This document shows, in pieces, positions 8,824-25,931 of a stretch of 45,795 bases of DNA. Position numbers and translations under genes: made by a program. The DNA comes from Candidatus Auribacterota bacterium (GTDB taxonomy: Bacteria; Auribacterota; Ancaeobacteria; Ancaeobacterales; Ancaeobacteraceae): NCBI GenBank assembly GCA_022711655.1, contig JAKLEM010000014.1:1-45795 (forward strand). The letters run 5' to 3'. Within the stretch, counting starts at the first letter, position 1, and every line of letters starts with the position of its first letter. Under the pieces are notes generated by a model that saw nothing but the letters and a program-made list of their open reading frames with translations, was not told the DNA's origin and made no database searches.

Positions 8824-8912
8824 TGAAGAGCATCCATGGCGGCATGTTGACGATCCGAGCGGGATTTTCCTCGCCGGGTAAAATCCCGCAATGCCGACAG
8901 GGATGCTCTTCA
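8824..8912. repeat. nested inverted repeat between permease and cupin genes
   Basis: The outer arms 8824-8845 and 8891-8912 are complementary at 19 of 22 positions. They enclose a perfect 10-bp hairpin (GCGGGATTTT at 8859-8868, AAAATCCCGC at 8880-8889). The structure fills the gap between the last efflux permease gene and the cupin gene, both on the minus strand. It could end the efflux transcript or stabilise an mRNA end; it has no classical T-tract. Confidence 0.6.
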
Positions 8913-12145: not shown

Positions 12146-12185
12146 ACATGCTCCCACAATAGTGAATGAGCTATTCAGCGGGTCC

Positions 12186-12325
12186 TGACAGGGCAGCACT
12201 CTTTCAGCATCGCTCGGGCCCCTCCAGCGGGGCCCCTCGCTCGGCGAGAATTTCTGCGCGCCGACGTTCCGTCGGCGACCCAGCCGCAGAAATTCTCAAC
12301 GTGCTGAAAGAATACTGCCCTGTCA
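12186..12325 (+). repeat. folded repeat element, copy A
   Basis: The outer arms 12186-12209 and 12302-12325 pair at 22 of 24 positions. Inside are hairpin P2 (GGGCCCC 12216-12222, loop TCCAGC, GGGGCCC 12229-12235) and a long arm P3 (13 perfect pairs, 12246-12258 with 12285-12297) topped by GCCGAC/GTCGGC. The core from 12208 to 12304 aligns end to end with copy B at 25804-25901. Loops and junctions are conserved while the paired bases differ and still pair. The element lies between the two ATPase genes, antisense to their transcription. Confidence 0.85.
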
Positions 12326-12406
12326 CCCGCTGTAATTGTCAAACCTCTATTTCAATCCCGCTCGCATTTTCAACATACTGACAGACACACTCCAAACCAA
12401 TCCTTC

Positions 12407-25773: not shown

Positions 25774-25931
25774 TGGAGGGGGAGACGGGGTTGCACACGT
25801 TCCGCATCGTTCGGTGCGCTCCAGCGGCGCACCTCACTCAGCAAACATGTCTGCGCCCCGGCCTACGGCCGGAGACCGAGCCGCAGACATGTTCAATGTG
25901 CGGACCGTGTGCAACCCCATCTCCCCCTCCA
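25774..25931 (+). repeat. folded repeat element, copy B
   Basis: The outer arms 25774-25806 and 25899-25931 pair at 31 of 33 positions. They enclose hairpin P2 (GTGCGC 25814-25819, loop TCCAGCG, GCGCAC 25827-25832) and arm P3 (12 perfect pairs, 25844-25855 with 25882-25893), topped by CCGGCC-TAC-GGCCGG (25858-25872). Core 25804-25901 aligns with copy A at 12208-12304. Here the element is in the sense direction, between hsp20 genes 2 and 3, 10 bases after a stop codon. Confidence 0.85.

Follow-up and report, generated by a model that had tools for sequence, protein, structure and literature searches.

A dispersed gene-free element of Auribacterota and other candidate phyla with a conserved three-way-junction fold and covarying loops

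Intergenic DNA of an Auribacterota bacterium and of genomes from other candidate phyla carries copies of a short element (about 130-190 bp, without an ORF) with a common architecture: a three-way junction composed of a long closing stem P1 (often about 30 bp), a hairpin P2 and a longer hairpin P3 with a conserved internal loop. The two sides of the stems change together, as do one position in each of two loops, and G.U pairs far outnumber A.C mismatches on one strand. We think it probable that one strand of this dispersed, gene-free element specifies a nucleic acid molecule of conserved fold, in the simplest case an RNA, with putative transcription, recognition by a protein and mobilization in trans. 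The element was recognized in the window, i.e., the whole stretch of 45,795 nucleotides analyzed here, and a covariance model retrieves about 40 full copies from the 1.62 Mb genome (75% complete) to which the window belongs.

The original prediction described two folded copies in the window, A (12186-12325) and B (25774-25931), and both are present at these coordinates. In A as in B, each of the two strands has a far more stable predicted fold than its dinucleotide-shuffled versions (z about -11, reached by 0/200 shuffles). Aligning A with B recovers the common core as described, including the exchanged P2 stem, which is GGGCCCC/GGGGCCC in A and GTGCGC/GCGCAC in B. The outer arms had been called unrelated, yet roughly 60% of the letters in their inner 24 base pairs are common to A and B. 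The two copies are members of a single family (family I), which has the TIR-like consensus ends TGCAGCGGG...CCCGCTGCA. At both sites the minus strand is favored by a lower folding energy and by the G.U/A.C bias. Judged on this strand, the predicted orientations (A antisense, B sense to its operon) are reversed: A is sense to the flanking minus-strand genes, whereas B is antisense to the plus-strand HSP20 genes. A and B are only two among about 40 copies in the genome, and the window contains a relic in addition.

The whole footprint of A, including outer P1, spans 12176-12332 on the minus strand, with a covariance model match at 12193-12318. In the orientation of the presumed RNA strand, the P1 5' arm (12302-12325) pairs with the 3' arm (12186-12209). 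They enclose the P3 hairpin (12241-12301), with the 5'-side internal loop GCGGCTGGGTCGCC and the junction strands CGTTGA/TCGCCG, and the P2 hairpin (12216-12235), with the stem given above and the minus-strand tip CGCTGGAG. Element B (25774-25931, minus strand; model match 25790-25915) sits between two HSP20 genes and is a diverged member of family I. Its P1 5' arm (25899-25931) pairs with the 3' arm at 25774-25806, while P3 occupies 25840-25898 and P2 25813-25833 (GGTGCGC/GCGCACC), all on the minus strand. The third, degenerate copy (8828-8908, plus strand) has kept P1 and P2 and lost most of P3; it is matched with an E-value of 1.7e-7 by model R1 and of 1.3e-9 by model R2, both introduced below.

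Across the genome, a pattern of the P3 stem yields nine genuine-looking matches, A and B included, and a consensus query adds more. A second family (family II), found by a pattern of the core, has the same junction as family I, CAGCACRTTGA-P3-TCGCYGAGCG-P2-CGATGCTG, but different P1, P2 and P3 stems. Folds computed for each of the 43 matches in this genome show the three-way junction in most of them.

Covariance model R1 was built from 14 copies, and model R2 is R1 extended with further copies, two of them from genome G004. In a search of related genomes, as the original prediction proposed, R1 detects the fold in further families of Auribacterota. With R2, matches occur in 8/44 genomes of the phylum (43 in the window's own genome, 11 in G004, four each in G011, G006 and G003, three in G022, and two each in G018 and G026), while G001, from the same family as the window's genome, gives no match to R1 or R2. 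R1 has no match in 15 genomes of other phyla. When GTDB genomes were scanned for the P3-loop motif, at least 110 stretches matched, and at least 79 elements in the fetched stretches are confirmed by R2 at E up to 0.001. Among the matches listed, these are mostly from Omnitrophota and Patescibacteria, the latter including Parcubacteria, Sungbacteria, Portnoybacteria, Uhrbacteria, Berkelbacteria, Azambacteria and others, with 1-20 copies per genome in 36 of the bearers listed. Phages and plasmids give no match to the element. Two viral contigs with motif matches have no covariance model match and are probably chance hits; Actinobacterial and Methylobacterium motif matches without a model match are likewise treated as chance.

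The covariation seen between A and B is upheld by the larger sets. In 25 copies, compensatory changes occur at 39/51 pairs and 93% of cells are paired, a count that overstates the independent events because copies within a genome share ancestry. The covariation score of these copies is 0.489, against 0.168 for shuffled and at most 0.13 for slid controls. The 79 copies from other genomes have 87.6% of cells paired and a score of 0.699 (0.161 shuffled, at most 0.12 slid), and all these figures are to be read with the leaning of a covariance model alignment toward the structure. A U.G wobble next to the junction is retained in 24/25 copies. When the families are compared, junction and loops prove conserved, and P1 is one of the parts that vary most. 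In the 79 copies the stems are nearly devoid of sequence consensus and the loops are strongly consensual, with P3-loop conservation partly imposed since the scan required that motif; it made no demand on the P2 tip or on most positions of the stems.

A second layer of covariation connects the two hairpins. The P3 internal loop contains the motif GAGCGG-S-CA, in which S is G or C, and the P2 tip reads C[T/A]CG-s-YGG. In 65/68 scorable copies s is C where S is G, and G where S is C. Counted once per genome, 35 G-C and 18 C-G combinations stand against one exception (53/54; Fisher p about 1e-14), and one genome carries both types, each matched. The model leaves both positions unpaired, and the search pattern did not include s; by inspection, families I and II obey the rule too. 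These joint swaps imply a tertiary contact, and no other single observation argues as strongly for a molecule that is folded and docked. Together, stem and tertiary covariation strongly support the original proposal of a structured RNA or single-stranded DNA hairpin recognized by its shape. The object under selection is a folded single strand, most simply an RNA.

The two strands are not equivalent. When the P1 arms are read outward and ungapped in 41 copies, one strand has 76 G.U pairs and 7 A.C mismatches; for A and B this is the minus strand. The corresponding numbers are 28 and 10 when each position and type is counted once over the whole structure, and 142 and 47 in a wider set; shared ancestry weakens the bias but does not remove it. 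Since a palindrome in double-stranded DNA has no reason for such a bias, it argues that one strand is what selection acts on, and it speaks against the earlier suggestion of a shape working on both strands. We therefore regard it as quite improbable that the element is an ordinary MITE, i.e., a double-stranded element whose P1 arms are the terminal inverted repeats for a DDE transposase, with arms kept complementary by quasi-palindrome correction or gene conversion and a fold that is not selected. The multiple copies, the similar ends within family I and the presence or absence at orthologous sites described below would suit a MITE. Correction by template switching, however, cannot create covariation between two loops and yields no 76:7 strand bias, and the part kept across phyla is the core with the loops, not the ends, contrary to the pattern of MITEs. 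Target-site duplications, which had been suggested as a sign to look for, are not clear either: visual inspection of the sequences flanking about 40 copies, with uncertain element boundaries, shows none that is consistent.

Copies are intergenic and lie in both orientations relative to their neighbor genes, which are assorted, unrelated housekeeping genes. Scanning 129 neighbors with Pfam reveals no recurrent gene, as at most four share a family (ABC transporter). Three genomes of one genus (G003, G018 and G026) were compared at orthologous sites. At a first site, the element is present in G003, decayed in G026 and absent in G018. At a second site, beside tRNA genes and with flanks that are 83-96% identical, it has opposite orientations in G003 (C34:8109, L114) and G026 (C22:12082, L117), by either an inversion through P1 or two insertions. 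At a third site, the orientation is the same in G003 and G018, and the element has compensatory changes, surrounded by spacers that cannot be aligned. That orthologous sites differ in the presence and in the orientation of the element suggests that it is mobile and non-autonomous, and taken together the comparisons point to mobility plus local maintenance.

The vertical persistence at some orthologous sites, with its compensatory changes, also fits a resident functional RNA. Such an RNA could be a cis-acting element of 3' untranslated regions (a terminator, processing or stability element) which has spread by recombination and not by transposition. The position of the copies lends this some credit: a convergent gene has its 3' end no more than 60 bp from the element's own 3' end in 41 cases, against 22 for the mirror case, a mild excess. 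Nevertheless, the mixed orientation to neighbors, the inversion between two relatives at one site and the absence from the same-family genome G001 all weigh against it, and we hold this explanation to be very unlikely.

An adjacent hairpin-recognizing transposase, which the original prediction had in mind, is not seen beside the copies, and no promoter, protein partner or autonomous copy of the element was found. Several candidates were rejected by their distribution over the eight bearing Auribacterota genomes. The reverse transcriptase domain RVT_1, as expected for a derivative of a retron or group II intron, is absent from seven of them, including the window's own; TnpB (PF07282) has no match in any; and the IVP family (PF05635) is missing from three, namely the window's genome, G003 and G011. 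Nor is a Y1/RAYT transposase a consistent partner, as its presence does not track the element: Y1_Tnp genes occur in seven of the eight bearers and in 26/36 non-bearing genomes, and none is matched in the window's genome, which is the richest in copies (75% complete).

The Y1 counts bear directly on a folded single-stranded DNA element, of which one strand would fold during replication or transfer and be moved in trans by a strand-specific HUH/Y1-like transposase, as in REP/RAYT or IS200/IS605 systems. Strand polarity, free orientation to genes and the Y1_Tnp genes in most bearers are in line with it. Against it stand the missing match in the copy-richest genome, the frequency of these genes among non-bearers and the hairpin itself: no conserved short tag was noticed at its foot, and to our knowledge a closing helix of roughly 30 bp combined with a loop-loop contact is unlike known Y1 hairpins. 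We consider this alternative unlikely. The loop-loop contact, the tolerance for G-U pairs and the long closing helix make us prefer RNA, which is a judgment since single-stranded DNA also folds with G.T pairs.

In agreement with the earlier statement that the element is not a named family, Rfam 15 gives no match in the window. Over eight representative loci, at gathering and relaxed thresholds, only a neighboring tRNA passes and the rest are sub-threshold chance matches. Within the limits of our literature search, no description of the element was found. It resembles the REP/BIME and REPIN repeats with their RAYT (Y1) enzymes as short, gene-free, multi-copy intergenic hairpins with strand polarity that are mobilized in trans, which for our element is a presumption. 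Yet it has a three-way junction with a loop-loop contact, a length of about 130-190 bp, a fold kept across phyla and no RAYT match in its richest genome; REPs typically are single bulged hairpins with a short, conserved tag at the base, and no such tag was noticed in the folds. With MITEs and the ERIC/RU-type enterobacterial repeats it shares the imperfect palindrome of 100-200 bp, the intergenic location, the many copies and the lack of an ORF, but here the core is conserved and the ends are variable (the reverse holds there), and covariation, strand bias and tertiary contact are further differences. HEARO/IscB RNAs, the omega RNAs of TnpB and the IS110 bridge RNA are also structured RNAs associated with mobile elements, sometimes in ORF-less copies; unlike these, our element has no Rfam match, no TnpB match in the bearing Auribacterota genomes, and loops that are conserved instead of being variable guides. 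The 23S rRNA intervening-sequence (IVP, PF05635) elements have a similarly long closing inverted repeat and intergenic sites in the same phylum, but carry an ORF and simple-sequence arms and are absent from the window's genome, G003 and G011.

For the preferred reading, a folded and probably RNA molecule specified by one strand, we propose the following organization. P1 would clamp the ends of the element and the three-way junction would place P2 beside P3, allowing the P2 tip C[T/A]CG-s-YGGGG to dock into the large P3 internal loop, GAGCGG-S-CA-N-GG / CGAGCGAG, in which tandem G.A pairs are possible. The element strand is presumably transcribed. A trans-acting protein may then recognize the junction and the docked loops, and this or another protein could copy the element into intergenic sites, giving a non-autonomous mobile element. 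A bolder version, which we put forward only tentatively and regard as doubtful, is a SINE-like class of bacterial mobile elements: a transcribed gene-free RNA with a docked three-way-junction fold, copied within and between candidate-phylum genomes by a novel enzyme. If the preferred reading is true, Omnitrophota, Patescibacteria and Auribacterota share an abundant, previously unrecognized structured RNA element, a new RNA family with strong covariation in which the sequence is almost free while fold and tertiary contact are kept. Its covariance model can be used to find and annotate copies in metagenomes, and its spread without genes raises a testable question: what copies it.

Some further observations concern the surroundings and variants of the element. 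At the first of the three same-genus sites, G018 instead holds an IVP gene (PF05635; C86:12395-12811; L294:196-612) that encodes a four-helix bundle and has inverted simple repeats on either side. Genes of this kind, with inverted repeats particular to a lineage, are common in Auribacterota. The motif GAGAGCGGAGCGAGCGA, seemingly shared near the G018 gene, does not recur at 29 other IVP loci and is treated as chance.

In the window's own genome, pairs of one family I and one family II copy lie in opposite orientation within about 100 bases of each other (C4:15961/16144, C11:9346/9535 and C45:43265/43477). The ORFs around the inverted copy pair in L138 are either without a Pfam match or housekeeping. 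At least six copies (C45:43477, C54:33462, C1:114173, C44:3731, C29:8010 and C4:45615) contain, within the P3 internal loop or the P2 loop, a second hairpin pair of roughly 46 bases, AAGCCGGCAAATC-GTAA-GATTTGCGGACCAGCCCCCGCATGGGGGC or a diverged version of it, which gives the impression that hairpin loops take up small hairpins. In one family II copy (C11:26291-26451, L102), the P2 loop carries an inserted stem-loop of another kind, TATGTGTCG...CGACATATC. Finally, a near-perfect palindrome at C37:2132-2200 (L110), with P1 fused to P2 and without P3, is apparently a deletion derivative of the element.
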